Source: Parafrankia discariae
GTDB taxonomy: Bacteria > Actinomycetota > Actinomycetes > Frankiales > Frankiaceae
Assembly (NCBI RefSeq): GCF_000373365.1
Contig: NZ_KB891274.1
Coordinates: 115,568-179,567 of the forward strand
Length of the DNA: 64,000 nt
Reading direction: 5' to 3'
The position numbers and the translations under genes are program-made. Under the pieces are notes generated by a model. It was given only the letters and a program-made list of their open reading frames with translations, made no database searches and was not told the DNA's origin. Below are positions 6,601 through 62,834 of the stretch, one piece after another. Numbering within the stretch: the stretch's first letter is position 1; the number at the start of each line of letters is the position of its first letter.

Positions 6601-7183
6601 CCGGCTGACGTCGCCGAGCCGTCGTCGCCGCCGGTTCGGCCGCTCCGGGGAAGAGCGGCGCCACCCGCGGCGGAGGAGCCTGCGGCGGTATGGGCGTCGC
6701 GAGCGGTCCAGGAAACAGCGGCTCGTCCGAGGGCTTCGCGCGGCCCGAGACCGCGCCACGGATGGCGGTCAGCAGCGTGCTGCGCGTCGCCTCCGCCGGT
6801 TGGCCGAACAGGTCGACCGAGACCACCTGACCGAGCAGGCCGGGGCGGTCGCAGTCCTCGACGCGGACGGGCAGCAGTTTGCGCCGGGCACTGTCCGGAT
6901 CTGCGACAACGGCGGCCTGCCACTCGTGCCGACCATAAACCGACTGTAGATAGGCGTCCGAGAGGATCGCGATCGTGCGCGTACCGAATTGCATTCCGTC
7001 CTGCATGGTCGCGGTCCAGTTGGAGCCAGCCACCATGTCCCACGCCTGGACCAGAACCCGAAACCCGGCGTCCTCCAGCTGCCACGCAATCCACTCGGCC
7101 CAGGCGCGATCAGCCTGCGTGTAGGAGACGAAGAAACTCCAGCGGTCGCCCGGAAGCGCCCCGCCGTTCCCCCCATTGTGCAT
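617..7183 (-). CDS. Giant TIR / caspase-like / Hsp90-type ATPase protein with C-terminal wHTH repeats
   Basis: A 2188-residue multidomain protein. Order: a TIR domain (about 15-130) with the FFVSYTQADRAW strand and the candidate NAD-cleaving glutamate E87 in GRHEWQAAV; a Pro/Ala linker; a caspase-like fold (about 222-390) with the catalytic His in LVLAGHGVH (H299) but VVVDAAVAF where a DxC motif is expected; a helical region; a GHKL/Bergerat ATPase (about 885-1055) with ELYQNALDAC, DNGIGMG and RFGVGVLS boxes; then about 14 repeats of roughly 63 residues (about 1305-2188), each containing a (R/S)P.(E/D)(V/I)..R...LG core, resembling the winged-helix units found with bacterial Hsp90-like conflict proteins. 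Likely role, by analogy, is a nucleotide-gated sensor with a TIR effector. Start: I prefer the ATG at 7183 (GGGA upstream; TIR starts soon after) over an upstream in-frame start at 7258. Solitary, divergent from the DUF1214-like gene. Confidence 0.85.
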   Translation of the reverse strand: MHNGGNGGALPGDRWSFFVSYTQADRAWAEWIAWQLEDAGFRVLVQAWDMVAGSNWTATMQDGMQFGTRTIAILSDAYLQSVYGRHEWQAAVVADPDSARRKLLPVRVEDCDRPGLLGQVVSVDLFGQPAEATRSTLLTAIRGAVSGRAKPSDEPLFPGPLATPIPPQAPPPRVAPLFPGAAEPAATTARRRQPVRADTSAVPARRLVHQAADPAPAAAGGEFRALLVGVAAYDDDRLPSLPDVTEAIDTTVEALEAVGYRVEIQDRSRLGLSAVKSAIHAFISGAAPGDTLLLVLAGHGVHSGRRDYLVPSDAAVGYQPFWDLCVPVDWTQAVSRSAAARVLVVVDAAVAFDDDVRDLVTEAGWAGGPLDTPAGTDLAYLYVDPSDPFGPVGPAGPGEPAEPGGTEEPGGTAGGAGRASLLRAMVDVASHRPLPAGLEELRAALTTSLGHGDQGSGSGAGRGRGTSGRAPSCLLRASSRDPRLFTVFPAAAVGQQAGRPVHPWQTVAERHSAWTLSAEAAAGDPRAGDELRESTLRLIGRLGRVSDDAAGRLRGDPWHDPGLAARMTKRVEFLVNRLPAEADALSPAEAALLVSVPFLHQAVWTRLVARAALAHPGSPSVWTDDVERGEFEAFLRLHPRLRRRAERARRSGDQQSAAAIGWWLAHQWIISRSASYAGTAFADLLTGLGVETVASEVFLPGRLAELLTALRAAPTFLGRPGRSGALRDLVLVAPATGDEMPLRERLVGYLLAAGQRMALEPAALPSVLVEHLGVADPVRLDELRETIRRAEWQHRGRSSRALAARCGHQAVQVALEHHVAALDTLFAEAHRATAETPALAALPTHATADRIHAAEVNGRAVYSAAGAQFRLAEDKVQELLMGEQLYANRALAVRELYQNALDACRYRRAREEYLERTGAAASGWAGEITFRQGFEPDGAPYIECRDNGIGMGLRELSDVFAEAGTRAVDLPEVVEEMVAWAACDPPVEFHPNSRFGVGVLSYFMIADEIDVETCRLGPDGRPGDRLRVTIAGPGNLFRIRNLGPGRDAGTTVRLYPSRDPQSSPVSCVDTLRRILWVAEFDTRATEGVARQFWPAGRLADSAPVGMEHPLTSTLRRETTQIVMADNGVWWCDGTGAVLADGLWVGRTAFGVVLNLTGPLVPELSVDRNEIRRFVDGSAIDAVLTGELSVLRSAASFDVSWRWLASFGLGFPLVADAVMTGKVADGESWTRVDGDLVPVEQVGCLAFDHDLLPSAVPAPAGRSGRYTAFDLTDLSDSVVFARMRGWVVGRSGDPERTRDSGRALPSDMVILGVRGDGSQRYGYSIGDLSTVVFMAGMLRSSPQRVRDRMSGLGISVASVKGVAVDELGDIDLQLVSADLDGEEAMFYSAGDVTPLQVARATQHLMLSFTEVRDRYRELGFEVRPAPTQSMTIDPLDLVLLSRSLDGRGGALPGGRVGLSHVVRAAIQTGRSVGDVCSRLRRFGYRTPATGCLERSGIRPDDAVIFGRDSTGALSAQPVPAVFLSNLGNHALESAGRLRDLGFPIADTIRVPVRDGRSPVDLFPSMGTQVKFRATSRPLDRVDVYQLAREASLGLERTAAHLRAAGYVVPNVSEIDDDRLLRIRGDRFTLGWLRAPVGIPGVLGLAQSLGGQPSEVEALLADLAIPIPDLAGIEMTTDDAIIFSSGLDGNIFGGLGAVGGVAVAHVIAAAARIRRRPCEVAARFLELGEPVADPDGWDATPVTPSDPPLLACKADSAVPWLPPGGVPGGQVIALAAHSGRSPREVGRRLAELGYQTGWVADVRLTAAEDRTLIDLLDVPDARARGRARASRASLLAAAWRHGRDPVGLARWLAGLGEDPGLEVEVMPRVAIGVDDLDLLSCELDGEPPWLPDGEIGTGHILAAAGRTGRSPAEIADRLGDLGFTVADLPHPVPTEVDAVDVILLSRDLDGGAPWLRGDRVPLAYVYSAACDLSCDVAEVRARYARLGFTAAGPTSELDQDERAFVTVAFHGAEIDSASPAACDTLSIAQVLGVAEFTGRPAAEVAHRFAKLGFTVPDETRPPIASPPDLSARDGLLLSAALDGSGPWLGPGPVPMAHVLAAAGRLRWTPDRVVGRFSELGYSTSPLVASARGAVIDGADRALAELLRDENDVYQERQVSWAEVLMASHRLRRRPDQIIARLAELGLRAAP

Positions 7184-7582
7184 ATCGCGAATTATCCCAG
7201 GCGGAACCATCCCGGACGAAGGCCGGTCGCACGCCGGCGGCGGCCACAGTCCGGGCATCGACGGCGCCCGCCGTGACCAGCCCGCCCGGCACCAGCCTGA
7301 GCCAGCGGTCGCCGATCAGGATCTGGATCGTCAGGCGGCCGCACGGCGTGAGGACGGACAGCGCCGCGCACCCGACGTCGGCCGCCGTCGCGCCTCAGGG
7401 CGCGCCGTCGACCCGGCGCCTGTCGGGCGTTGCGCCGCCCGCAAATTGATGTCACGATACTGCCACTAAACCCCGGATCGAGCCCGATCGGGACCGCGAA
7501 CCCCGTGGACGTCGACCGGTGGCAGCGTTCCCAGCCGACCCGGTCTTAATCCGGGTACGAACAACCAATAGGAGCCGTCACG
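7184..7582. other. Divergent intergenic region
   Basis: About 400 bases between the giant TIR gene (minus) and the DUF1214-like gene (plus). It must hold both promoters. The plus-strand gene has a clear AGGAG ribosome site at 7570-7574. No convincing -35/-10 pair, repeat or RNA structure was recognised; an alternative upstream start for the TIR gene (7258) would use part of it. Confidence 0.5.
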
Positions 7583-49211: not shown

Positions 49212-50389
49212 TCATCGGTCGCCGAAGAGTTACCGGACGGCCCGCGCTCGACGACGCCGACCCGCTGTTCCGGAAAACGAAGTACGCCGACACTCCCCGG
49301 CGACGCGGTCCGGCCCACCCGGATGCCGGTGAATTGCCGGTTTTCCGGCCGGGGCGGCGGAATTAGCCGCCGTGACGGGCGGTGCCGTCGGTCGGAGTAC
49401 TGACACCGGCCGCACGCGACGTCGCCGTCGGTCGGAATCGGAAGATCCGGCGGCTCCGGCAGGTCGGTTCTTCCGGCTCTCGACCGGCGCGCCGAGCGCC
49501 GCGTCGTCGGGGCAACGCCGGGCGGCCGCCGCCTTGTCCGACTCAGCCCGGTGCCGATGACCAGGCCTGTCCGGTGCGTCAGCGGTAGCGACCAAACGCG
49601 AAGGGTTCGCGCTGAACGCCCGGTTTGTCATGGCACGACCATTTCGTCCCATCAACCGTCCGCGCGACAGCCCACGGAGCGGACCCGCGTCCGTCGAAGC
49701 GCGCACCGCGGCGCCGATATGGGTGCTGCGTCACATCCACCGCGCCAAGCCCTGGCCCGCTCTCCATAACAGCCGGTCAGGCACCGAAAGCGGGACCCGA
49801 ACACGAGAACGGCAGGACGAAGATCCACATTGACGAGACCGAAGCTAAATGGTCAAATACGCAATGTGTATCGTTCGGCCGTGCTGGTGACCCGAAGTCA
49901 CATCGACTTCCTGCGCGTTAACTCCGCCGCCTGTACCAACGGCTGAACGGCTCGTAGCACCCAGCACGGACGACGGAGACCCGACCCCGGCTCCACGGGA
50001 TACGGCCCCCACGGTCGCGTCTGAGCATCGGCATCCCGGCATCGGAATACAGCCGCACCCGCCGACTACTTCCTTCTCACACCGCGCTGACAGCCGGTGT
50101 GGGCCCCCGTGACGCAAAACCGAAGAAGAGATCGAGACGGTATCAACGCGGCCCCCCGGCCGCCCGCGTCCTCGAGATCCGCGCCTGCCCGCCGATGAAG
50201 CAGACCAGCCGCCCCGGAGAAGCCTGGGGCGGCTACGACGATGCCGTGACATCGCACGGCGGCCGGCGCGGGCACGTCCCACCGACCGGGCGACCACCAC
50301 GGGCATGCATGATTCGTGCCCCGGCCACCACAGCGCCGTCGTCCGTCGAAGAATGTCCGGAACCGCGTCGAGAAGGAGAGGCACAGGGC
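49212..50389. other. 1.2-kb gene-poor region before the LuxR gene
   Basis: I find no gene with recognisable sequence here on either strand; open frames present are arginine/proline-rich shadows without ribosome sites. Around 49830-49925 the DNA is AT-richer (CTAAATGGTCAAATACGCAA) and may contain promoters. It marks the left border of the tetronate cluster. Confidence 0.45.
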
Positions 50390-53242
50390 ATGACCACAGC
50401 CGCGATGACCACCGCCGAGCTCACTGCGACGGGTGCGCGCGGCACCGTCCGAACAGCGGAGCACGGCCGGATCCTGAACGTGCTCGCGGGCGCGGACAGC
50501 GGTGGCCCGGCGATCGTGGAGCTCACCGGCGATCCCGGCTACGGCAAGACCCGGCTGCTGACGGCCGTGGCGGACGAGGCCCGCAAGCGTGGCGTCGACG
50601 TGCTGCGGGGCAGGTCGCTCGAGACCCGTCGGCACCGGCCCTTCCACCCGTTCATCGACGCCTTCAGCACCTGGCGGCCCACCGGCGCCGGGCCGCTGCC
50701 GCAGGCCACCGCGTTCGTCCAGGCCCTGGCGACCGCCGGTGACATGCTCGCCGACACCGAGACCGGCCGCTGCCGGCTCTTCGCCGAGCTGCGATCGCTG
50801 CTGGAGGAGACGCTGGCGGCGGCGCCCGACCCACTGCTGCTGCTGCTCGACGACGTGCATTTCGCCGACCGGGCGTCGGTCGAGCTGCTCGAGATCCTGA
50901 CGCGCTGGCCGCTGGGGCAGCCGCTGTCGGTCGTGGTGGCGCATCGCCGGCGTCAGATGTCCTCCTGGCTGCAGGTCACCCTGCAGCAGGGCGTCGAGGT
51001 GGGCGCGGTGGACCAGGTCGCGTTGCCGGCGCTCAGCCTGCGCCAGAGCGCCGAGCTCCTCGGGCTCGCGGTCACCGCGCCGGGGCTGGCCGACCTGCAC
51101 GAGCGCAGTGCCGGCAATCCGCTCTACCTGACGGCGTTGGCCGAGCGGGAGCGCGGTCTGAACGGAGTGGACCCGACCGGCCCGGACCCGACCGGCGCGG
51201 GTGGCCACGACCCGGCCGGTGAGCCGCCCGACCTGTGGACGCGCAGCGCGCTCGGCGCCCGGCTGCTGGCCGAGACCGTGCATCTCGACGCCCGCCAGCG
51301 GCTGGTCGCGCACGCGGCCGCCGTACTCGGCGACACCTTCTCGATCGACGCCGTGGCGGCCGTCGCGCAGCTCGACCGGGAGGACGCCTGCCAGGCGCTC
51401 GGCCAGCTGCGTGGCCGCGACCTGGTGCGCATGGTGCCGGGCGGCGAGCTGGCCTTCCGCCACCCGCTGCTGGGCAGCTGTGTCTACGGGGAGACCGACT
51501 CCTGCTGGCGGGCCGGGGCGCACCGGCGCGCCCTCGAGCACCTCCGGTCGACGTTCGCCGCGCCGGCCGTGCTCGCCCGGCATGTCGAGCGCTCCGGATC
51601 GCACAGCCAGGCCCTGGACCTGACGGTGCTGCTCGACGCGACCCGGGCGGCCGTGCAGAGCGAGCAGGGCACCGAGGCCGCCCACTGGCTCAGCACCGCC
51701 CTGCGGCTGCGCCGCGCCACCCCGGAAACCCCGAACGGCACAGGCAGCACAGACAGCACCGGCGACACAGCCGGTGCGGGGCTCCCGCCGGTCGGCCCGG
51801 ACGTCTGGCGCCCGGTGATCGACCTGCTCGCCCGTCCCGACACCGTCCCGCGCCTGCGCGCCCTCGGCCAGGAGGTCCTGAACACCCCGGCCGCGTACGG
51901 GGCGGCCGGCCGGGTGGGCACGGCGGCGCACCTGGCGATGGTCTCGGCCTCGATGGGCTGCCACGACCACGCCGTCGCCCTGCTGTCGACCGCGCTCGCC
52001 GACGCCCGCGGGCCGGCGGAGGAGGGGCGCGTGCAGCTGTTCACCCAGCTCGCCCGCATCGTCTCCGGTGGCATACCGAGTCGCGCCGAGGTCGACGCGC
52101 TGACCGGGCCGGAGCCGGCCGGTGACCCGCTGACCCGGGCCGGCGGGCTCGCGGTCCGGGCGCTGTGCGCCGCGCTCACCACCGACCGCGGCACCACCGG
52201 GAACAGGTCCGCGGGCGCGGAGACGGACGCGGCGGCCACCGCGCTCGACGCCCTGGCGGTGAACGGCCCGGACCCCTCGGGCCCGGAGCTGTACCTCCTG
52301 CAGTGCCTGGGCTGGACGGAGGCGATGCTCGGTCGCTACGACAGCGCGCACGCCAGGATCACCCGCGCGGTGCGCGGCGCCCGCAAGCACGGCGAGCGCC
52401 ACCTGCTGCCCGCCCTGCTCAACAGCCTCGCCTACATCCACTACCAGTCGGGGCGCCGGAGCGAGGCGATCGAGGTCACCCGGGAGGCCCAGCACGTGTC
52501 GCAGCGGGCCGGTCGCGCCGACCAGGCGGCGCTGGCACAGGCCGTGGCCACGGCCGCCTGGGCCGGGCTGGGGCGCTCCCCCACGTTCGGCCCGGAGCTG
52601 CCGGAGGGCGTGCACGCCGACGCGCCCCGCACACCGCTGACCGCGCTGTTGTTCGCCGAGGCCGCGCTGGCCGCCGGCGACGGACCGGCTGCCCTGGCCC
52701 TGCTGGGGTCGAAGCGGGAGACCTGGCGGGTCGCCGAGCCGATCCCGGTGCTGGGCGCCCGCATCTTCGAGGTGCTGGCCGCCGCCGCGCTGCTGGCCGG
52801 GGAGGATCCGCGGCCATGGGCGGCCCGCGCGGCCGAGGAGGCCGCCCGGGTCGGGCTGCCCGAGCAGCGGGGCCACGCACTGCTCGCCCGCGGCTACGCA
52901 CTGGGCCGCGGCCCGGAGGCCGACCGGTGCTACGCCGAGGCGGCCGACCTGCTGGCGGGCGCGCCCGCCGGCGGCCGGGCCCGGACGTTCGCGCGGTCGG
53001 CTCAGCAACGGCGCCACCGCCCCGGCCCCGACCCGCTGGTCGAGCTCACCACCAGGGAGCAGGAGGTCGCCCAGCTCGCCGGCCAGGGGCTGCGGACCCG
53101 GGACATCGCCAGCCGACTGCGGGTGAGCCCGCGCACCGTCGACACCCACCTCTCGCACATCTACGACAAGCTCGGCATGAGTTCGCGGGTCGAGCTGGCC
53201 CGGCTGCTGTCCCCGGTCCAACTGCTGCCCCCGGGCCGCTGA
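50390..53242 (+). CDS. Large LuxR-family (LAL) ATPase regulator
   Basis: A 950-residue regulator of the LAL class. AAA-type domain near the N-terminus with Walker A LTGDPGYGKTRLL (about 43-55) and Walker B PLLLLLDDVHFADRASVELL, a long TPR-like middle, and a C-terminal LuxR HTH (LTTREQEVAQLAGQGLRTRD, IASRLRVSPRTVDTHLSHIY, DKLGMSSRVELARLL). Such proteins activate antibiotic clusters in an ATP-dependent way. ATG at 50390 with AAGGAG upstream; the open frame further upstream has no ribosome site. In the abyssomicin cluster a LuxR-type regulator occupies an equivalent role (from memory). Confidence 0.93.
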   Translation: MTTAAMTTAELTATGARGTVRTAEHGRILNVLAGADSGGPAIVELTGDPGYGKTRLLTAVADEARKRGVDVLRGRSLETRRHRPFHPFIDAFSTWRPTGAGPLPQATAFVQALATAGDMLADTETGRCRLFAELRSLLEETLAAAPDPLLLLLDDVHFADRASVELLEILTRWPLGQPLSVVVAHRRRQMSSWLQVTLQQGVEVGAVDQVALPALSLRQSAELLGLAVTAPGLADLHERSAGNPLYLTALAERERGLNGVDPTGPDPTGAGGHDPAGEPPDLWTRSALGARLLAETVHLDARQRLVAHAAAVLGDTFSIDAVAAVAQLDREDACQALGQLRGRDLVRMVPGGELAFRHPLLGSCVYGETDSCWRAGAHRRALEHLRSTFAAPAVLARHVERSGSHSQALDLTVLLDATRAAVQSEQGTEAAHWLSTALRLRRATPETPNGTGSTDSTGDTAGAGLPPVGPDVWRPVIDLLARPDTVPRLRALGQEVLNTPAAYGAAGRVGTAAHLAMVSASMGCHDHAVALLSTALADARGPAEEGRVQLFTQLARIVSGGIPSRAEVDALTGPEPAGDPLTRAGGLAVRALCAALTTDRGTTGNRSAGAETDAAATALDALAVNGPDPSGPELYLLQCLGWTEAMLGRYDSAHARITRAVRGARKHGERHLLPALLNSLAYIHYQSGRRSEAIEVTREAQHVSQRAGRADQAALAQAVATAAWAGLGRSPTFGPELPEGVHADAPRTPLTALLFAEAALAAGDGPAALALLGSKRETWRVAEPIPVLGARIFEVLAAAALLAGEDPRPWAARAAEEAARVGLPEQRGHALLARGYALGRGPEADRCYAEAADLLAGAPAGGRARTFARSAQQRRHRPGPDPLVELTTREQEVAQLAGQGLRTRDIASRLRVSPRTVDTHLSHIYDKLGMSSRVELARLLSPVQLLPPGR

Positions 53243-53328: not shown

Positions 53329-54102
53329 TCAGCTCGCGGTGGGCAGGTCGAGCAGCCGGTCGGAGGTGAGGATGGCGTGGTGCAGCCGCCGTAGCGAGCG
53401 GCAGGGCTCCAGCCCCAGCTCGGCCCGCAGCACCCGCTGGGCGTCGCGGTACACCGACAGTGCCTCGGCCTGCCGGCCCGAGCGGTAGAGGACGAGCATC
53501 AGCTGCGAGTACAGCGACTCCCGCAGCGGATGCTGGGCGATGAGCGTGCCGAGCAGGCTGATCACCTCCCGGTGCCGGCCGAGCGCCGTGCGGGCCTCGA
53601 CCGACAGCTCCAGGGCGGCGAGGAGCTCCTCCTCGGCCCAGGCGGCGAAGGCGGTCAGGACCGGCCCCTCCACGGCGGATTCCAGCACCGGGCCACGGAC
53701 CAGGGACAGCGCGAGCTCGGCGGCGGCCAGCGCCTCCTCGTAGCGCCCGGCCAGGTGGTGCTCCCGCCCGTCGCGCATCGCCTCCTGGAACTCGACGACG
53801 TCGTAGCTGGCGCCGTCCAGCCGCAGCAGGTAGCCGGCGGGCTTGGTGACGATGGTGCGGGTGGGGTTCGCGCCGGCGGCCGCGAGGAACTTGCGCAGCT
53901 GGGAGATGTAGACGTGGATGGCGGCCGCCGCCCGGCGGGGCGGCCGATCTCCCCACAGTTCCATGACCAGAGTGTCCTTGGTCGTGATCCGGCCGGCGCC
54001 GACGAGCAGCACGGCCAGGGTGGTCTCCATCTTCGGCGCGCTCAGCAGGTGGCTCTCCCGGCTGTTCGACACGCGCAGGGGCCCGAGCAGTTCGTATCGC
54101 AT
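53329..54102 (-). CDS. SARP/AfsR-type BTAD regulator
   Basis: A 257-residue pathway-specific activator. OmpR-like winged helix at the N-terminus (MRYELLGPLRVSNSRE, TTLAVLLVGAGRITTKDTLV, YISQLRKFLAAAGANPTRTI, VTKPAGYLLRLDG) followed by the bacterial transcriptional activation domain with TPR-like helices (YEEALAAAELALSLVRGPVL, LIAQHPLRESLYSQLMLVLY, GRQAEALSVYRDAQRVL). SARPs bind heptameric direct repeats and switch on antibiotic genes. ATG at 54102 with GAGG 9 bases upstream; divergent from the RHS gene. Confidence 0.94.
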   Translation of the reverse strand: MRYELLGPLRVSNSRESHLLSAPKMETTLAVLLVGAGRITTKDTLVMELWGDRPPRRAAAAIHVYISQLRKFLAAAGANPTRTIVTKPAGYLLRLDGASYDVVEFQEAMRDGREHHLAGRYEEALAAAELALSLVRGPVLESAVEGPVLTAFAAWAEEELLAALELSVEARTALGRHREVISLLGTLIAQHPLRESLYSQLMLVLYRSGRQAEALSVYRDAQRVLRAELGLEPCRSLRRLHHAILTSDRLLDLPTAS

Positions 54103-54461
54103 TGACACCTCGTGCAGGCAGCAGGAAACGAGTCCGGGAAGGGGAGGGCCTCACTGTCCCGCGGCAACGTGGTGCGCACATCGGTGAAACTGCGTAGGTA
54201 AACCGATACGCCGCCCGGCGGCGTTCCAGCCGCGTTCCTCCGGCCGGGGCGTCGGGGGGGGAATTCCCGCCGCGGCGCGGGGCGCGCCGCCTGCGGAGTA
54301 CCGCACTATAGCGGGCGATCAAGGACGTGGCGGCCCGGCCCGCCATCCGCGATGACGGCATTGGCGGTACCCGCCGGGCGCTGGTCCGGCCGCCGGATTA
54401 GAAAACCTTTAGACGGCCCGCCGACTCTCACCTCGTCGAGACAGCGACGAGGGGACCGTCC
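54103..54461. other. Divergent promoter region of SARP and RHS/tetronate operon
   Basis: 359 bases that must hold the SARP promoter and the promoter of the RHS-tetronate gene row. TTAGAAAACCTTTAG (54397-54411) is an AT-rich dyad about 50 bases before the RHS start. SARP-type direct repeats were looked for and not found with certainty. Confidence 0.4.
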
Positions 54462-57400
54462 GTGTCAGATTTCCAGGACGACCACGATCCGGGCGCCGTG
54501 TGGCGGCTGCCGGTCAGTGACACCACGATCCTGTTGGTCGAACTCACCACCGGTGAGCCGGTGCTGCGCCAGCGGGACCTGCTCGCCCCACGCGCCGACG
54601 CGGTCCGGCCGCCGTCGCGTGAGTACCGCGGCCGGCGGACCGGCGAGAACAGCGGGCCGGGACCGGGCTGGTCGGTCACCGGCCCCGACGACTCCGCGGG
54701 GGTCGAGTACGACCCGGCCGGGCGGCCGGTGCGGCACACCGACGCCGCCGGCGCGGTCACCGCCTTCAGCTGGGACGACGAGCACCGGCTGACCGGGCTC
54801 ACCGACGCGGCCGGCGCCCTCGTCCGCCTCTCCTACACCGCCGCCGGGGCCGTCAGCGAGGTCGTCCTGGAGGGCGTCGGGCGCACCGGCTTCACCTACC
54901 AGGACGAACCGTCCGGGACGGGCGGGCCGGCGGGCTCCGGCGGGCCGGCGGCCGAGGGGACCCGCACCGTGGTGACGGACCCGCTCGGCCGCGCCACCGC
55001 GTACACCTTCGACGGCCACGGCCGGCTGCTGACGGTCACCGACCCGCTGGGCGGCGTGCACCGCCAGGAATGGGATCCGGTGGGCCGGCTGGCCGCCGTC
55101 GTCGACCGGACGGGCGGGCGCACCGCCTACGAGTACGACGGGCACGGCCGCCTCGTCGCCCGGGTCGCGCCGACCTCGGCCCGCTCGTCGGTCGGCTACG
55201 GCGACCCGGCGCATCCGGACCTGGTCACCACACTGCGGGACCCGGCGGGCAACGAGGTCGTCCTCGAGCACGACACCGCCGGCCGGGTGGTGCGCGCCGG
55301 CACCCCGGGCACCGCGGGGGCAGCCGACACCGCGGGCGCGGCCGGCTCTCTCGACCGGCGGGCCTACGACCCCGTGCACGGCCGGATCAGCTCCGTCACG
55401 AACGGTGCCGGCCATCGCACCTCCTTCGAGTACGACGCGGCGGGCGAGCTCGTCGCGGTCAGCCCGCCGGCACCGCGGCGCCGCGCCTCGTACGACTACG
55501 ACGAGTTCGGCCGCGTCGTCGCCGTGACCGGCGGCAACGGGCGGCGCACGGCGTACCGTCACGACCCGGTCGGCCGGCTCGTCGAGGTCAGCGGCCCCGG
55601 CGGGGTGCTCCTCTCCCAGACGCACGACCCGCTGGGCCGGATCGTGCGCCGCGCGGGCGCCGGCTGGCGCTACGACTACAGCTGGGTGGCGACGTCGGCC
55701 GGCAGCCGGCTCGCCGCGGTGGTGCGCACCGACGACGCCGGCCGGGAGGAGGTGCGCGCGGAGCACGGTCCCGACGGGGCGCTGCGCTCGCTGACGACCG
55801 CCGGCGGCACCACGGACTACGACTACGACCCCGCCGGCCGGCTGGCCGGGGTGCGCACCCCCACCGGGCACCAGGCCCGCTTCACCCGCGACGCCGCCGG
55901 GCGCGCGCTGCGGATCGAGTTCGGCGGCGCCGTCCAGGAGATCTCCTACGACGCGGCGGGCCGCCGCCGGGCGCTGACCCTGCTCGGCGCGGACGGCGCG
56001 ACGCTGCTGAGCGCCGAGTACGACTACCGGGACCCGACCGGCGCGGACGGCGACCGGTTGCGCCGGCTCGTCCTGGACGGGCAGGCCACCGAGTACGCCT
56101 ACGACCCGCTCGGCCAGCTCATCCAGGCCGGGCCCACCAGCTACGCCTACGACGCTGCGCTCAACCTCGTCCGCCTCGGGGAGACGGCGTTCACCATCGG
56201 CGCGGCCGGCGAGGTCACCCGCTTCGGCGCGACCGAGTTCGACTACGACGGCGCCGGCAACTTCGTCGAGGAGGTCAACCCGACCGGCTCGTTCCGCTAC
56301 AGCGACACGAACCAGACCGTGCTCGGCGTCTTCGGCGGCGCGATCGTCGCCGACATCGCCCACGACGGCCTCGGCCAGCAGACACCCCGGCGGGTCACCG
56401 AGACCACGGTCGACGGGCGGACCGTCACCCACGTCCTGACGCACGGCCCGCTGGGCGTCGCCCGGGTGGTCGACGACGGCGTGCCCCTCGACGTGGTGCG
56501 CCTCCCCGACGGCACGGTGCTCGCGGTCATCACCGCCGAGGGCCGGCTGCTGTGGACGGTGACCGACCACCAGGGCTCCGTGCTGGCACTCGTCGACGAG
56601 CAGGGGGGGCTGGCCGCCCGCTACGGCTACACCCCGCACGGCGCGGTGACCGCCACCGGCCCGGACGCCGCCACCAACCCGTTCCGCTACCGGGGTGCCT
56701 ACCAGCTGCTGCGCAGCGCGCACTTCCTCGACAACCGCCTCTACAACGGCTACTGGGGCCGGTTCACCCAGCCCGACCCCACCGGCCGGCAGTACGGCCC
56801 CTACACGTTCGCGGACAACGACCCGCTCGGCGCCGGACTCCCCGGCCGGCACGACTTCTGGGCGGCGCTGACCGGGCCGCCGGAGCTCGCCGCCGAGCTG
56901 TTCTTCCCGCCGGCCGACGTCGCGGCGCCCACCGCCGGCGCCGCGGACGGCCCGCACGCGCGGGCGGCGCTGGCCGCGCTGACCGGCCCCGGGGTGACCC
57001 CCGCCCAGCTGCCGCGCATCGCCGAACACGGCACCGGCCACACCGCCGGCCGCCGCACCGACCGCACCACCGCGCCCGCCGGCCCGGCGGGCCGGGCGAA
57101 CCCCACCCCGAAAGGACGTCCCACCGTGGCTGACCAGATCGTGATCCGGGTTCCGAACGAGGTCGTCGTCAAGGTCGTCGACGACGTGGTCGACCTGGGC
57201 GACCCGCAGATCGGCCAGACCGGCGTCTTCGACGACGAGCTGTACGACGAGGACGGCAATCTGATCGGCACCTCGCACGGCTCGTTCCGCATCGAGTACG
57301 TGCGGCCCGGCGACGGCGGCCTGATCACCTACTACACCGAGGACATCACCCTCGACGACGGCACCATCCACGCCGAGGGGTGGGCGGACTTCAAGGACGT

Positions 57401-57533
57401 CAAGACGAGCAAGTGGGTGCACTACCCCGCGACCGGGACGGGCGGGCGTTACGCCGGCCTCACCGGTTTCCGCACCTGGCGGATGACGGGCGTGCGGGCT
57501 TCCGCCGAGGCCCGCATCCTGCTGTCCGACTGA
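54462..57533 (+). CDS. RHS/YD-repeat protein reading into an AbyU-like Diels-Alderase domain
   Basis: A 1023-residue open frame. Residues about 60-780 are YD repeats (YDPAGRPVRHTDAAGAVTAF, YTFDGHGRLLTVTDPLGG, YEYDGHGRLVARVAPTS and many more), closing with the RHS core HFLDNRLYNGYWGRFTQPDP (about 755-775). After an Ala/Pro linker the frame continues without a stop into an allene-oxide-cyclase-barrel domain (889-1023). No signal peptide, PAAR or transport domain is visible, unlike secreted Rhs toxins, and no immunity gene follows. RHS shells enclose their C-terminal cargo; here the cargo would be a cyclase. Whether the fusion polypeptide is made or the tail is translated separately is open. GTG at 54462 with GAGGGGA upstream. 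Confidence 0.85.
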   Translation: MSDFQDDHDPGAVWRLPVSDTTILLVELTTGEPVLRQRDLLAPRADAVRPPSREYRGRRTGENSGPGPGWSVTGPDDSAGVEYDPAGRPVRHTDAAGAVTAFSWDDEHRLTGLTDAAGALVRLSYTAAGAVSEVVLEGVGRTGFTYQDEPSGTGGPAGSGGPAAEGTRTVVTDPLGRATAYTFDGHGRLLTVTDPLGGVHRQEWDPVGRLAAVVDRTGGRTAYEYDGHGRLVARVAPTSARSSVGYGDPAHPDLVTTLRDPAGNEVVLEHDTAGRVVRAGTPGTAGAADTAGAAGSLDRRAYDPVHGRISSVTNGAGHRTSFEYDAAGELVAVSPPAPRRRASYDYDEFGRVVAVTGGNGRRTAYRHDPVGRLVEVSGPGGVLLSQTHDPLGRIVRRAGAGWRYDYSWVATSAGSRLAAVVRTDDAGREEVRAEHGPDGALRSLTTAGGTTDYDYDPAGRLAGVRTPTGHQARFTRDAAGRALRIEFGGAVQEISYDAAGRRRALTLLGADGATLLSAEYDYRDPTGADGDRLRRLVLDGQATEYAYDPLGQLIQAGPTSYAYDAALNLVRLGETAFTIGAAGEVTRFGATEFDYDGAGNFVEEVNPTGSFRYSDTNQTVLGVFGGAIVADIAHDGLGQQTPRRVTETTVDGRTVTHVLTHGPLGVARVVDDGVPLDVVRLPDGTVLAVITAEGRLLWTVTDHQGSVLALVDEQGGLAARYGYTPHGAVTATGPDAATNPFRYRGAYQLLRSAHFLDNRLYNGYWGRFTQPDPTGRQYGPYTFADNDPLGAGLPGRHDFWAALTGPPELAAELFFPPADVAAPTAGAADGPHARAALAALTGPGVTPAQLPRIAEHGTGHTAGRRTDRTTAPAGPAGRANPTPKGRPTVADQIVIRVPNEVVVKVVDDVVDLGDPQIGQTGVFDDELYDEDGNLIGTSHGSFRIEYVRPGDGGLITYYTEDITLDDGTIHAEGWADFKDVKTSKWVHYPATGTGGRYAGLTGFRTWRMTGVRASAEARILLSD
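57126..57533 (+). CDS. AbyU-like spirotetronate Diels-Alderase (internal start)
   Basis: The last 135 residues of the RHS frame, which could start at the GTG 57126 with AAAGGA exactly 9 bases upstream. The sequence (QIVIRVPNEVVVKVVDDVV, GVFDDELYDEDGNLIGTSHG, SFRIEYVRPGDGG, LITYYTEDITLDDGTIHAEG, WADFKDVKTSKWVHYPATGT, GGRYAGLTGFRTWRMTGVRA) matches, from memory, the eight-stranded barrel enzyme AbyU of abyssomicin synthesis, which performs the intramolecular [4+2] cycloaddition joining the exocyclic tetronate methylene to a triene. The tetronate cassette right behind it supports this strongly. The active-site residue set must be checked against AbyU. Confidence 0.75.
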   Translation: MADQIVIRVPNEVVVKVVDDVVDLGDPQIGQTGVFDDELYDEDGNLIGTSHGSFRIEYVRPGDGGLITYYTEDITLDDGTIHAEGWADFKDVKTSKWVHYPATGTGGRYAGLTGFRTWRMTGVRASAEARILLSD

Positions 57534-57561: not shown

Positions 57562-58605
57562 GTGCCCGGTCCCGACATCCACGTCCTGTCCGCCGGTTCG
57601 GCGCTGCCGGGGCCAGCGGTGGACAACGCCACCCTGGCCCAGCGGTTCGGCATGGACACGCTCTGGCAGCAGTGGATCGAGGTGTTCATCGGGACCAGGG
57701 CCCGGCACCTGGCCCTCGACCTGGAGTCCGGCCAGCTCACCAGCACCCTCGCCGAGCTCGTCGAGCGGGCGGGCCGCCAGGCGCTGGCCGCGGCCGGGCT
57801 GGGGCCCGGCGACATCGACGCGGTGGTGCTCGGCACCGCCACCCCCGACCAGCTCATGCCGGCCACCGTGAACATCGTCGCCGACCGGCTGGGCATCAAC
57901 GACGTCCGGACCTACCAGTTGCAGTCCGGGTGCTCCGGTGCCGTGCAGGCGCTGGACGTGGCGCGCCAGATCCTGCTGGCCGGCAGCGGCCGGCGGGTAC
58001 TGGTCCTCGGCGGCGACGTGATCGCCCGGTTCTACGACGTCACCGCAGACCTGCGCAAACTGCCGCCCGCGCAGCTCGTCAACTACGTGCTGTTCGGGGA
58101 CGCCGCCGGCGCGGCGGTGCTGTCGACCGAGCCGGGCCCCGGCTCGGCGGTGGTGCGGGCGCTGTTCACCCGGCTGGTCGGGCTCGGCCGTCCGCCCGGC
58201 GCGACGCTGGAGTGGTTCGGGCCGACCGACCGTGACAGCACCCGCCCGGCCGCGACCGAGGACTACAAGGCCATCGAGCAGCACGTGCCGGCGATGACCG
58301 GCGAGGTGCTCGAGGAGCTGCTCACCGCCACCGGCTGGAGCCCCGGCGAGGTGGACCTGCTGCTGCCGCCGCAGCTGTCCGGGCGGATGACCAGGCTGAT
58401 CACCGAGAAGCTGGCGCTGCCCCGGGCCGGTGAGGTGACCGTCGTCGACGAGGCCGGCAACTGCGGCAACGCGATCGTCTTCCTCCAGCTGGAGCGGGCG
58501 CTGGCCAAGCTCGGCGCGGGTGAGCGGGCGGTCGGCGTCTCCATCGAGTCCAGCAAGTGGATCAAGGCCGGCTTCGCCCTGCAGGGCGGCGGAGGGGACT
58601 CCTGA
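57562..58605 (+). CDS. KASIII-like tetronate-forming ketosynthase (AbyA1 type)
   Basis: A 347-residue thiolase-fold enzyme like 3-oxoacyl-ACP synthase III. Nucleophile Cys124 in YQLQSGCSGAVQALDVARQI; the Asn site is intact in DEAGNCGNA (Asn300), but LLLPPQLSGRM has Pro270 where KASIII has His of PHQ. In tetronate pathways (AbyA1-type) the homologue condenses glyceryl-ACP with the polyketide to close the tetronate ring, a C-C and C-O bond formation that need not use the decarboxylative His. GTG at 57562 with AGGAGAGGAG upstream, 28 bases after the RHS/AbyU frame. Its stop overlaps the FkbH start. Confidence 0.9.
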   Translation: MPGPDIHVLSAGSALPGPAVDNATLAQRFGMDTLWQQWIEVFIGTRARHLALDLESGQLTSTLAELVERAGRQALAAAGLGPGDIDAVVLGTATPDQLMPATVNIVADRLGINDVRTYQLQSGCSGAVQALDVARQILLAGSGRRVLVLGGDVIARFYDVTADLRKLPPAQLVNYVLFGDAAGAAVLSTEPGPGSAVVRALFTRLVGLGRPPGATLEWFGPTDRDSTRPAATEDYKAIEQHVPAMTGEVLEELLTATGWSPGEVDLLLPPQLSGRMTRLITEKLALPRAGEVTVVDEAGNCGNAIVFLQLERALAKLGAGERAVGVSIESSKWIKAGFALQGGGGDS

Positions 58606-60578
58606 TGACCCGGACCGCACCAGCCGAGGCCGCGCCGACCGAGGCGGCCCCGGACCAGACCGCGCCACCCCAGACCGCGGCGACTGAAGCCGCGCCGGCC
58701 GAGAACGCGCCGGAGCCGGATCTGCGGGCGCTGCACCGGGCCGGGCGGCTCGCCGCCGACTACCCGACTGTCCGGGGGCTGCTCGCCGGGCTGAGCGGGC
58801 CCGAGCTGCTCGCCGCCGGGCGGCTGCTGGCCCGGCTCGACCCCGACGAGGTGCTCGCCGCGCATCCCCGGGTGCCCGCGCCGGCGGTCACCGTCACCGG
58901 GCACGGCACCCTCAACGCGCTGGTCCCCGCGTTGACCGCCGAGCTCGCCCGGCACGGCGTGCTCGGCCGTCTCGAACTCGCGGACTTCGACACCTGGGTC
59001 ACCGAGCTGATCGACCCCGGCAGCGCGCTGTACGCGGGACGGCCGTCCTTCGTGCTGCTCGTGCTCGACCCGGAGGTCGTCAGCGACGACCTGCCGAACC
59101 CGTGGCGGGCCGGCGACGCCGAACGGGTGCTGGCGGAGAAGACCGCGCTGGTGGAGCGGGTCGTGGACGTCTTCGGCTCGGCCGGGCAGGGCGCCACGCT
59201 GGTACTCAACACACTGGCGCTGCCCGGCGAGCTGACCGGCCAGCTGCTCGACCGCCGCGAGCGGGCCCGGCTGGGAGCGGCCTGGCGGGAGGCGAACGCG
59301 CGGCTGCTGCGGCTCGCCGAGACCCATCCGGCGGTGGCCGTCGTCGACCTCGACCCGCTGCTCGCCGCCGGCATCCCCGCCCGTGACCCGCGGGCGGCCG
59401 TCTACGCGCACGCGCACCTGTCCGACGCGCTGCTCGCCGCCTACGCCCGGGAGGTGGCCCACCTGATCCGGGCCGCGACCGGCGGCGGGCGCAAGGTGCT
59501 CGCGCTCGACCTCGACGAGACCGTCTGGGGCGGCATCCTCGGTGAGGTCGGCCCGGAGGGCATCGAGGTCGACGGCGGCTACCGCGGCCAGGCGTTCCGC
59601 CGGTTCCAGCGGGTCGTGCGCCAGATCGGCGCGCAGGGCGTGCTGCTCGCGGCGGTCAGCAAGAACGACCAGGAGCCGGTCGTCTCGGTGCTGCGCGAAC
59701 ACCCGGGCATGGTGCTGCGCGAGGACGACTTCGCCGTGGTCCGCGCCGACTGGGGGCCCAAGCACCGCCATCTCGCCGAGCTGGCCGCCGAGCTCGGTCT
59801 GGGGGTGGACAGCATCGTCTTCGTCGACGACAGCCCGTTCGAGCGCGGTGTGGTGCGCCGCGAGCTGCCCGGGGTCGCCGTCGTCGACGTCGACGGTGAG
59901 CCGGCGCTGCACGTCCAGCGGCTGCTCGCCGACGGCTGGTTCGACGTGCGCGAGCTGACCGCCGACGACGTGGCCCGCCCCGAGCGCTACCGGGCCGACC
60001 GGGCCCGCCGGGAGCTGCTGGACACCGCCGGCTCCCTGGACGACTACCTGCGCGAGCTCGGTATCGCGGTCACCGTCGAGCCGGCAGCACCCGCGCAGCT
60101 CGCCCGGGTCTCCCAGCTGACCCTGCGCACCAACCAGTTCAACCTGAACACCCGTCGGCTGCGGCCCGCCGAGGTCGAGGCGCTTGCCGCGGACCCGGCG
60201 GTCCGGGTACTCGTCGTCTCCTCGGCCGACCGGCTGGGCGACAACGGCCTGGTCGGGGTGGTGGTGACCAGCCGGGACGGCACCACGCTGCGCATCGACG
60301 ACTTCCTGCTCAGCTGCCGGGTGTTCGCCCGCGGCATCGAGCAGGCGGTGCTGGCCGCGGTGCTGCGCCACGCGCACCGGACCGGCGCCGCCGAGGTCCG
60401 CGCCGACTACACCCGCACCGCGAAGAACGGCAAGGTCGCCGACTTCTACCCCCGCGCCGGCTTCGCCGCGGTGAGCGCGGACGACGCCGGTGCCCGCTTC
60501 CGCCACGACCTTCGCGACCTGCCCGAGCCGCCGCCGCACGTCCGCCTGACCGCCCGCTTCGATGAGGACGCACCGTGA
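58605..60578 (+). CDS. FkbH-like glyceryl-ACP synthase (AbyA2 type)
   Basis: A 657-residue HAD-superfamily protein. After an Ala/Pro-rich N-terminus, an SGNH-like region, then the HAD core: KVLALDLDETVWGGILGEVG (DxDxT, Asp302 and Asp304), LLAAVSKNDQEPVVSVLREH and SIVFVDDSPFERGVVRRELP, and a C-terminal GNAT-like part (LTLRTNQFNLNTRRLRPAEV, VVVTSRDGTTLRIDDFLLSC, FYPRAGFAAV). FkbH-type enzymes take 1,3-bisphosphoglycerate, dephosphorylate it and load D-glyceryl on an ACP, here the one encoded next. ATG at 58605 inside TGATG, GGAGGGG upstream. Confidence 0.95.
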   Translation: MTRTAPAEAAPTEAAPDQTAPPQTAATEAAPAENAPEPDLRALHRAGRLAADYPTVRGLLAGLSGPELLAAGRLLARLDPDEVLAAHPRVPAPAVTVTGHGTLNALVPALTAELARHGVLGRLELADFDTWVTELIDPGSALYAGRPSFVLLVLDPEVVSDDLPNPWRAGDAERVLAEKTALVERVVDVFGSAGQGATLVLNTLALPGELTGQLLDRRERARLGAAWREANARLLRLAETHPAVAVVDLDPLLAAGIPARDPRAAVYAHAHLSDALLAAYAREVAHLIRAATGGGRKVLALDLDETVWGGILGEVGPEGIEVDGGYRGQAFRRFQRVVRQIGAQGVLLAAVSKNDQEPVVSVLREHPGMVLREDDFAVVRADWGPKHRHLAELAAELGLGVDSIVFVDDSPFERGVVRRELPGVAVVDVDGEPALHVQRLLADGWFDVRELTADDVARPERYRADRARRELLDTAGSLDDYLRELGIAVTVEPAAPAQLARVSQLTLRTNQFNLNTRRLRPAEVEALAADPAVRVLVVSSADRLGDNGLVGVVVTSRDGTTLRIDDFLLSCRVFARGIEQAVLAAVLRHAHRTGAAEVRADYTRTAKNGKVADFYPRAGFAAVSADDAGARFRHDLRDLPEPPPHVRLTARFDEDAP

Positions 60579-60808
60579 CCGTGAGAACCGTCGAGGACTT
60601 CGTCGCCCTGCTGCGCGACGAGCTCGCCCTGCCCGTCACCGCCGACGACCTCGACCGGGATCTCGACTCCGTGGAGTCGTGGGACTCGGTCCAGCTGCTG
60701 GCGCTGTGCACGATCCTGGAGCGGGAGACCGGCCGCTCGCTCCCGCTGGCCGAGGTCCTGGAGGCCCCCAGCCTGGAGGCCGTCTACCAGCTGGCGGTGC
60801 GGTCGTGA
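60575..60808 (+). CDS. Acyl carrier protein for glycerate (AbyA3 type)
   Basis: A 77-residue free-standing ACP. The phosphopantetheine serine is Ser38 in ESWDSVQLLALCTILE. It carries the glyceryl unit made by the FkbH-like protein to the acyltransferase/KASIII. GTG at 60575 overlaps the FkbH stop (GTGA); its own stop overlaps the next GTG (GTGA), so stoichiometric coupled translation is likely. Confidence 0.93.
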   Translation: MTVRTVEDFVALLRDELALPVTADDLDRDLDSVESWDSVQLLALCTILERETGRSLPLAEVLEAPSLEAVYQLAVRS

Positions 60809-61716
60809 CGGCGGGCACGCCGACGGCTCCCGCCGGCCCGCGCGCGGCTGCCGGCGGCGGCCCGGCGGCGGCTCCCGCGCCCGGCACGGGCACCGGCACC
60901 GGCGGTACCGCCGGCACCGCCGGCGGCGGCGAACCCGAGCTGGTGGCCGCCGGGCCCGCGCCGCTGCCCCGGCAGCGCCGGCACACCCAGTTCTTCCTGG
61001 CGACGGTGCGCGAGTTCTCCCCCGTGTTCCTGGACACCGAGGTGGACATGACCCGGGTGCTCGCCCACCGCGAGGCGGCGCGGGCGCAGAGCGGGGTGCG
61101 CTACGCGACGAGCGCCTACGTGCTGCGGGCCGCCGGGCGCGTGCTGGCCCGCCACCCGGACGCCAACGCGGCGCTGCGCGGCGGGCTGCGGACCCGGGTC
61201 GCGCACTACCCGTTCGTCCACGGCAAGCTGACGCTGGACAAGGTCCTGGACGGGCGGCGGGTGGTCCTCGGCACCGTGGTGCCGAACCTGCACGAGGTGG
61301 GCCTGGCGGAGATCCAGGCGCACCTGGAGCGGGTCCGCGACGGCGACCCGCAGCGGCTGCCCGACTTCGAGGGGATCCGCCGGCTGCACGCGGCGCCGTG
61401 GCTGGTGGGCCGGCTCCGTTTCCGCCGGGCAGCCCGCTCGCTGGCCCTGCGCCCGCATCTGACCGGCACCTTCGCCGTGACATCGCTGGGCCACCGGGCG
61501 GTCGACTCCTTCCAGTCGGTCGGCGGCACGACCACGACCTTCGGCGTCGGGCGCGTCCTGCCCCGGGCGGTGGTGCGCGACGGCGAGCTGGCCGTGGCCC
61601 CGGTGCTGCGCCTGAGCCTCTCCTTCGACCACCGGGCGATCGACGGCGCCCAGGCCGCCGACGTGCTGACCGAGGTCAAGGAAGCCCTGGAACAGAACGA
61701 TCTGGAGCGGACGTGA
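60805..61716 (+). CDS. E2-like acyltransferase acetylating the tetronate (AbyA4 type)
   Basis: A 303-residue protein with only the catalytic domain of 2-oxoacid dehydrogenase E2 enzymes; no lipoyl domain. After a Gly/Ala/Pro leader (about 1-60), RVLAHREAARAQSGVRYATS, LTLDKVLDGRRVVLGTVVPN, FAVTSLGHRAVDSFQSV and LSLSFDHRAIDGAQAADVLT (His276, Asp280, HxxxDG) form the chloramphenicol-acetyltransferase-like fold. In tetronate pathways this enzyme acetylates the hydroxymethyl of the ring. GTG at 60805 overlapping the ACP stop. Confidence 0.92.
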   Translation: MTAGTPTAPAGPRAAAGGGPAAAPAPGTGTGTGGTAGTAGGGEPELVAAGPAPLPRQRRHTQFFLATVREFSPVFLDTEVDMTRVLAHREAARAQSGVRYATSAYVLRAAGRVLARHPDANAALRGGLRTRVAHYPFVHGKLTLDKVLDGRRVVLGTVVPNLHEVGLAEIQAHLERVRDGDPQRLPDFEGIRRLHAAPWLVGRLRFRRAARSLALRPHLTGTFAVTSLGHRAVDSFQSVGGTTTTFGVGRVLPRAVVRDGELAVAPVLRLSLSFDHRAIDGAQAADVLTEVKEALEQNDLERT

Positions 61717-62834
61717 ACGATCTCGCCGAGCTGAAGACCTTCGTCGTGGCACACGCGGTGTCGCAGGGGCTGCCCGCCGGGCACTACGACCCGCTGCTGG
61801 CCCGGATCCGCCACGACGAGGACGGCGTCCCGGGCTCGTGGGCGTTCGAGTGGAGCGCGCTGGCCGACGACCTGGCCGCCGAGGGCCGGTCGCTGGAGGC
61901 CAGCGTGCACTACACGATGGCCCGCTTCCCGTTCGTCGACGGTCCGGCGCGGGCCCGGGCGCTCGAGCGGGCGACCGGGGAGTTCGCCCGCTGGAGCACC
62001 GCGCACCCGGCGCTGCGCCGCCTGGACGTCGAGCTGCCCGCGGGCCGGGTGCGCTGCTGGACGACCGGCCTCGACGCTGGGAGCACCGGGGAGGCCGGGG
62101 GCGCCGCCGGGCCACGGCCGCTGCTGGTCATGACCGGGGGCATCGTGTCGACCAAGGAGCAGTGGGCGCCGGTGCTGCTGGGCCTGGCCGAGCTGGGCTT
62201 CGCCGGGCTGGTCACCGAGCTGCCGGGCGTCGGCGAGAACACGTTGCCCTACCGGGCCGACAGCTGGACGCTGTTCCCCGCCCTGCTCGACGCGATCGGC
62301 CGGCCGGCCGGCACCGCCGACGTCTACCTGCTGGCGCTGAGCTTCAGCGGTCAGCTGGCGCTGCGGGCCGCGCTGCACGACGACCGGATCGCCGGGGTGG
62401 TGGGCGCGGGCGCCCCGGTGCGGGAGTTCTTCACCGACCCCGCCTGGCAGCGCCGGGTGCCGAGGGTCACCACCGACACCCTGGCGCACCTGACCCGGAC
62501 CAGCGCCGAGGACGTCTACCCGGCTGTGCGGGACTGGGCGCTGCGGGAGGACGAGCTGGCGGCGCTGCGGATTCCGGTCGCGCACGTGACCAGCCTGCGT
62601 GACGAGATCATCCCGCCCGGCGACGCGCGGCTGCTGCGCCGGCTGGTGCCGCGGATCCGGCTGCTCGCCCATGACGACGTGCACGGCGCGCCGTCGCACT
62701 TCGCCCAGACCCGGCTGTGGACGCTGTTGTCGGTGCTGCGCATGCACGGCGGCAACGCCCCGACCCGGCTGGCGCTGACCCGGCAGTTCGCCCGGCTGCG
62801 CTACGCCGACCCGGCGGTGCGCTCCGCCGCCTGA
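61713..62834 (+). CDS. Alpha/beta hydrolase, acetate-eliminating (AbyA5 type)
   Basis: A 373-residue FrsA-like alpha/beta hydrolase. Oxyanion region LLVMTGGIVSTKEQ, nucleophile Ser210 in LLALSFSGQLALR (a GxSxG variant with small residues), acid near SLRDEIIPPGD and catalytic His in HDDVHGAPSHF. The AbyA5 homologue removes acetate from the O-acetylated tetronate to create the exocyclic methylene, the dienophile used by the AbyU cyclase. GTG at 61713 overlapping the acyltransferase stop (GTGA). The final 34 bases overlap the convergent TetR gene. Confidence 0.92.
   Translation: MNDLAELKTFVVAHAVSQGLPAGHYDPLLARIRHDEDGVPGSWAFEWSALADDLAAEGRSLEASVHYTMARFPFVDGPARARALERATGEFARWSTAHPALRRLDVELPAGRVRCWTTGLDAGSTGEAGGAAGPRPLLVMTGGIVSTKEQWAPVLLGLAELGFAGLVTELPGVGENTLPYRADSWTLFPALLDAIGRPAGTADVYLLALSFSGQLALRAALHDDRIAGVVGAGAPVREFFTDPAWQRRVPRVTTDTLAHLTRTSAEDVYPAVRDWALREDELAALRIPVAHVTSLRDEIIPPGDARLLRRLVPRIRLLAHDDVHGAPSHFAQTRLWTLLSVLRMHGGNAPTRLALTRQFARLRYADPAVRSAA

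Follow-up and report, generated by a model that had tools for sequence, protein, structure and literature searches.

The locus analyzed here is an abyK-abyU gene pair in an abyssomicin-type spirotetronate cluster of a Frankia-type actinomycete, with the two genes read as one continuous frame. This frame (54462-57533, forward strand, 1023 aa) encodes a YD/RHS-repeat protein that runs into an intact AbyU-type spirotetronate Diels-Alderase. It lies in the window, the 64,000-nt stretch of Parafrankia discariae contig NZ_KB891274.1 that was analyzed. We consider it likely (probability approximately 0.85) that the merged frame is an incidental product of indels or a sequencing or assembly error and that the key enzyme is most likely the free 135-aa AbyU starting at GTG 57126. 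The locus is ordinary in its parts; the fixed pairing of its Diels-Alderase with an RHS shell that carries no toxin is genuine and already known in outline. The features of the region are as follows.

50099-53242, forward: abyH-type LuxR-family regulator (AAA_16 and GerE)
53329-54108, reverse: abyI-type SARP regulator (BTAD and Trans_reg_C)
54462-57092, forward: abyK orthologue, cytosolic YD/RHS-repeat protein, approximately 877 aa before the abyU leader (Pfam RHS_repeat, PDB and fold matches, identity to Frankia EI5c)
56910-57125, forward: variable, GC-rich linker joining the two frames (length difference from EI5c, pLDDT)
57111-57116, forward: abyU ribosome-binding site AAAGGA (sequence, similar site in the 22 orthologous loci)
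57126-57533, forward: abyU orthologue, spirotetronate Diels-Alderase, 135 aa, with its own GTG (5dyv match, AOC_like, residues, TM-score)
57131-57133, forward: ancestral abyK stop TGA in GTGGCTGA, outside the present RHS frame (same ATGNCTGA-type overlap in relatives)
57562-58605, forward: abyA1 orthologue, ketoacyl-ACP synthase III-like, tetronate formation (Pfam ACP_syn_III)
58557-60578, forward: putative abyA2-type glyceryl transferase/phosphatase, start uncertain (from aby gene order, without a Pfam match)
60562-61716, forward: abyA4-type acyltransferase frame with a 2-oxoacid dehydrogenase acyltransferase domain (Pfam 2-oxoacid_dh and gene order), probably with the abyA3 ACP near its start
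61398-62834, forward: abyA5-type alpha/beta hydrolase, whose true start lies after the listed GTG (Pfam Abhydrolase_1/FrsA-like and gene order)

The fused frame starts at GTG 54462, which is preceded by the ribosome site GAGGGGA. Pfam identified 10 RHS_repeat stretches (PF05593, E 1.4e-55) and an AOC_like domain at residues 900-1021 (PF18678, positions 2-123 of 123, E 2.5e-42). In a search against solved structures, the N-terminal part matched RHS effectors and teneurin shells, and the C-terminal part matched AbyU (5dyv, E 1e-63); RHS shells were the top PDB matches of the N-terminal part both by sequence and by fold (Foldseek). The internal abyU start, GTG 57126-57128, is preceded by AAAGGA at 57111-57116, 9 nt upstream. 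The results support two statements of the initial annotation, namely that the RHS gene continues in frame without a stop into a spirotetronate cyclase, and that this cyclase has its own GTG and ribosome site. A normal end of the RHS core, which had also been claimed, was not found: the DPXG-X18-DPXG motif is missing, and the TIGR03696 core model is matched at positions 1-69 of 76 only.

With an AbyU alignment as the query, one genome of each GTDB species was scanned, and 25 loci were found. Of these, 22 (L023-L044) carry close AbyU orthologues, with the best tblastn segment 71-87% identical. An RHS gene was found directly upstream on the same strand in all 22 close orthologues; none lies beside the three 52-55% relatives. 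The RHS gene is separate from abyU in 21 of the 22 loci, owing to a different frame or an intervening stop, and abyK ends there between 8 nt inside abyU and 103 nt before it. The 8-nt overlap, of the ATGNCTGA type, occurs in Frankia EI5c, six Streptomyces, and two Micromonospora; in the other unfused loci, abyK ends 16-103 nt before the AbyU start. Across the 22 orthologous loci, the abyU start is conserved, and a similar purine-rich ribosome site (AGAGGA-like in the orthologues) is found at the matching position. The abyA1 gene adjoins the pair in 20 of the 22; in Micromonospora it lies on the opposite strand, and abyK and abyU stay paired despite this.

The closest relative, Frankia EI5c (L019/L024), has the same gene order as the window, with AbyK 74% and AbyU 87% identical. 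Unlike the window, it is unfused, and its AbyK stop TGA overlaps the AbyU ATG in ATGGCTGA. In Verrucosispora (Micromonospora) maris AB-18-032 (PMC3625739; PDB 5dyv, 7pxo), members of the same two families are likewise adjacent in a tetronate/PKS cluster, but they are separate genes with an AbyK of 579 aa, whereas the window frames are continuous and its AbyK comprises approximately 877 aa. One Micromonospora genome encodes an AbyU with no difference from the crystallised AbyU; there it is a separate 141-aa protein with the 8-nt overlap with abyK. This genome and one of the two Micromonospora loci may belong to a single species. The only other in-frame AbyK-AbyU fusion, of 1025 aa, was found in Streptomyces iconiensis (L036), which brings the fused loci to 2 of 23 with the window included. 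This fusion differs from that of the window in lineage and in its unrelated linker, and no conserved in-frame linker was found among the 23 loci. In the AbyK tree, the window is sister to the unfused EI5c (100/100) and S. iconiensis is placed elsewhere, which indicates that the two fusions are independent. A conserved RHS-cyclase fusion was rejected because 21 of the 22 relatives are unfused. Frankia AiPa1 and Parafrankia colletiae carry a different arrangement (L016/L021 and L020/L022, also L046 and L047), with two tandem AOC_like (AbyU-type) genes beside abyA1 and no RHS gene, possibly corresponding to two cyclisation steps.

The window RHS frame aligns with that of EI5c through residue 855, after which five gaps (6+4+8+10+7 = 35 nt, 2 mod 3) follow. 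The linker (56910-57125) holds a degraded C-terminal tail of AbyK of the 'PLIAG' type and the abyU ribosome site. A second frame, 55070-57133, is ended by the TGA at 57131-57133 with '..PHPERTSHRG*', and EI5c AbyK ends with '..PHPEGTSRHG*'; in EI5c, six Streptomyces, and Micromonospora, abyK does stop at this ATGNCTGA-type overlap. The probable origin of the merge is that indels in the unconserved abyK tail, with a net length not divisible by three, shifted the RHS frame, which would then pass the old stop at 57131-57133 and enter the abyU frame. Codon-position composition left the frameshift unplaced; the linker is GC-rich at all positions. When single indels of 1-2 nt were simulated in the abyK tails of the 21 unfused relatives, 27% led to a fusion, and two fusions among 23 loci thus need no selective explanation. 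Chance does not account for the RHS and AbyU halves of the frame. It could account for the uninterrupted junction, which takes one of the three phases of a stop-poor, GC-rich DNA and which simulated indels produce at this rate. The fusion itself is probably incidental.

Alternatively, the merge could be an indel that sequencing or assembly introduced into the GC-rich linker, in which case the real abyK would end at the overlapping TGA, 57131-57133, as in EI5c. The source assembly is a draft of 194 contigs, the linker is gap-prone as well as GC-rich, and the end of frame 55070-57133 resembles the EI5c AbyK end. Nevertheless, the window differs in length from EI5c at several separate places, a pattern more like true divergence than a single error, and S. 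iconiensis shows that fusions arise elsewhere too; we therefore regard an artefact as rather unlikely.

The window AbyU is 73% identical to the crystallised AbyU, and its predicted structure has a TM-score of 0.88 to 5dyv. The window and every orthologue carry the same residues as AbyU at E19, F41, Y76, F95, Y106, R122, W124, and M126. We take F41, F95, Y106, W124, and M126 to be active-site positions. Tyr76 and the Glu19-Arg122 bridge of AbyU have been described, and AbyU produced in E. coli with no shell present forms a homodimer and binds a substrate analogue (PMC11268479). AbyU works alone in vitro. Given the conserved start and ribosome site, the retained residues, and the free homodimeric state of AbyU, the active product here is most likely free AbyU, 135 aa long and translated from GTG 57126; its activity and the balance between fused and free protein are inferred. 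This enzyme would catalyse the intramolecular [4+2] cyclisation of a tetronate polyketide. In any 108-kDa fusion, a disordered linker of roughly 95 residues would connect AbyU to an RHS shell without a toxin. Such a fusion is at least tolerated, since it is encoded here and two independent lineages carry one. Ribosomes reading abyK could cross the internal start and lower the yield of free AbyU, and the fusion would then be the main product. The initial annotation had offered either an RHS cage hosting a pericyclase or dual translation into a fusion and a free enzyme; with 21 of 22 loci unfused, a designed payload is not supported. Dual translation may occur, the free enzyme then being the likely functional form. 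AbyU in 5dyv was deposited as 'YD repeat-containing protein', and the free-standing cyclases in PDB 8of7, 9qp8, and 5dyv all bear this name or 'Rhs family protein'; these names probably spread from a neighbouring or fused RHS gene.

AbyK shares the YD-repeat shell fold of the RHS polymorphic toxins Tse5, RhsA, Tse15, and TcC but, unlike them, lacks an N-terminal secretion domain, the DPXG-X18-DPXG motif, and a toxin domain. The aspartyl autoprotease motif defined for RHS toxins (PMC10684867) is absent from the window AbyK and all 22 orthologues. The window AbyK contains no N-terminal secretion or delivery domain, no further Pfam domain, and no hydrophobic or transmembrane stretch (KD19 at most 1.33). 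No C-terminal toxin domain was found in the orthologues, 21 of 22 of which end in a short tail with no further domain; this tail carries a conserved 'PLIA(G)' in most loci and lineages. Delivery of an RHS toxin was rejected on the grounds that protease motif, secretion domain, and toxin are all missing. AbyK is under purifying selection (dN/dS 0.22-0.51, compared with 0-0.30 for AbyU) and evolves much faster than AbyU. In the Micromonospora loci L043 and L044, AbyK is shortened at the N-terminus, to approximately 617 aa in L043, and the lineage that holds the type cluster thus has a smaller RHS shell. The AlphaFold model of the fusion shows an RHS shell and an AbyU barrel, with pLDDT below 50 at residues 818-913, where the linker is predicted to be disordered. 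The C-terminal core and linker are of low confidence in this model, and the position of AbyU inside or outside the shell is unreadable; the model of the shorter Micromonospora AbyK gave the same partial picture.

The initial annotation had placed the cyclase in the payload position of the RHS shell. A functional RHS-pericyclase fusion, in which the cage would enclose AbyU instead of a toxin and serve it as chaperone or reaction chamber, agrees with the in-frame fusions in two lineages, with the confirmed RHS fold, and with the position of AbyU, which matches that of an RHS payload. We nevertheless judge it highly improbable. The genes are unfused in 21 of 22 loci, the closest relative EI5c included; the linker is unconserved and disordered; and the Micromonospora shell has been shortened to approximately 617 aa. 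A designed payload is made less likely still by the absence of the DPXG-X18-DPXG motif that would release it, by AbyU made alone, a free homodimer that binds a substrate analogue, and by the identical AbyU that is encoded as a separate 141-aa protein.

A complex in trans is a more tenable, if still tentative, suggestion: the toxin-less shell would bind or enclose AbyU, or a hydrophobic substrate or product, and the fusion would be a harmless covalent version of this pairing. This suggestion concerns the role of AbyK and is compatible with an incidental origin of the fusion. AbyK accompanies AbyU in all 22 loci, and all six AbyK genes among 394 Streptomyces genomes adjoin AbyU. The pair is kept even where abyA1 sits on the other strand, the overlap between abyK and abyU is tight in many loci, and AbyK is under purifying selection and has no transmembrane stretch. 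However, co-occurrence in one cluster is no proof of binding, AbyK evolves much faster than its neighbour, AbyU works alone in vitro, and abyK has been reported as of obscure function. On the favoured explanation of the locus, AbyK would probably serve AbyU, or the AbyU substrate, as a dedicated cytosolic partner. A more specific proposal, that AbyK is a domesticated, toxin-less RHS cage or chaperone for the pericyclase or a reactive polyketide, acting mostly in trans and in cis here and in S. iconiensis, appears quite doubtful; if true, AbyK would be the first case of an RHS shell that serves biosynthesis.

All AbyU-clade Diels-Alderases found have a toxin-less RHS protein encoded directly ahead of them, and the reverse holds in the sampled Streptomyces. 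The pairing turns the long-unassigned abyK into a partner that can be tested for a natural Diels-Alderase that is among the best studied, and makes AbyK a rare RHS shell whose role is probably biosynthetic rather than toxic. The RHS neighbour has been named abyK since 2011. In the abyssomicin cluster, it was described as a 'YD repeat' protein of 579 aa with obscure function, beside abyA1 (PMC3625739), and the literature on abyK that we consulted contained only this description and no assigned role. In genome mining, abyU mostly adjoins abyK, abyH, and abyI (PMC7176366, Table 2). Frankia, Herbidospora, Micromonospora, and Streptomyces are already-listed carriers of abyssomicin-type clusters.

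The gene order in the window follows this pattern, with the abyH-type and abyI-type regulators, the RHS gene, AbyU, and then abyA1-, A4-, and A5-type tetronate genes. Directly downstream of the window lie an MFS transporter, a luciferase-like monooxygenase, an ABC transporter, a P450, and a modular PKS, so that the AbyU orthologue sits within a tetronate/modular PKS cluster. Together these genes make up the set known from the abyssomicin cluster (PMC3625739). Elsewhere in the window, positions 617-7258 on the reverse strand encode a 2213-aa protein with TIR and HD-CE/iHD-CE domains and eight wHTH-HSP90-associated repeats, a large multidomain protein of signalling or defence type.
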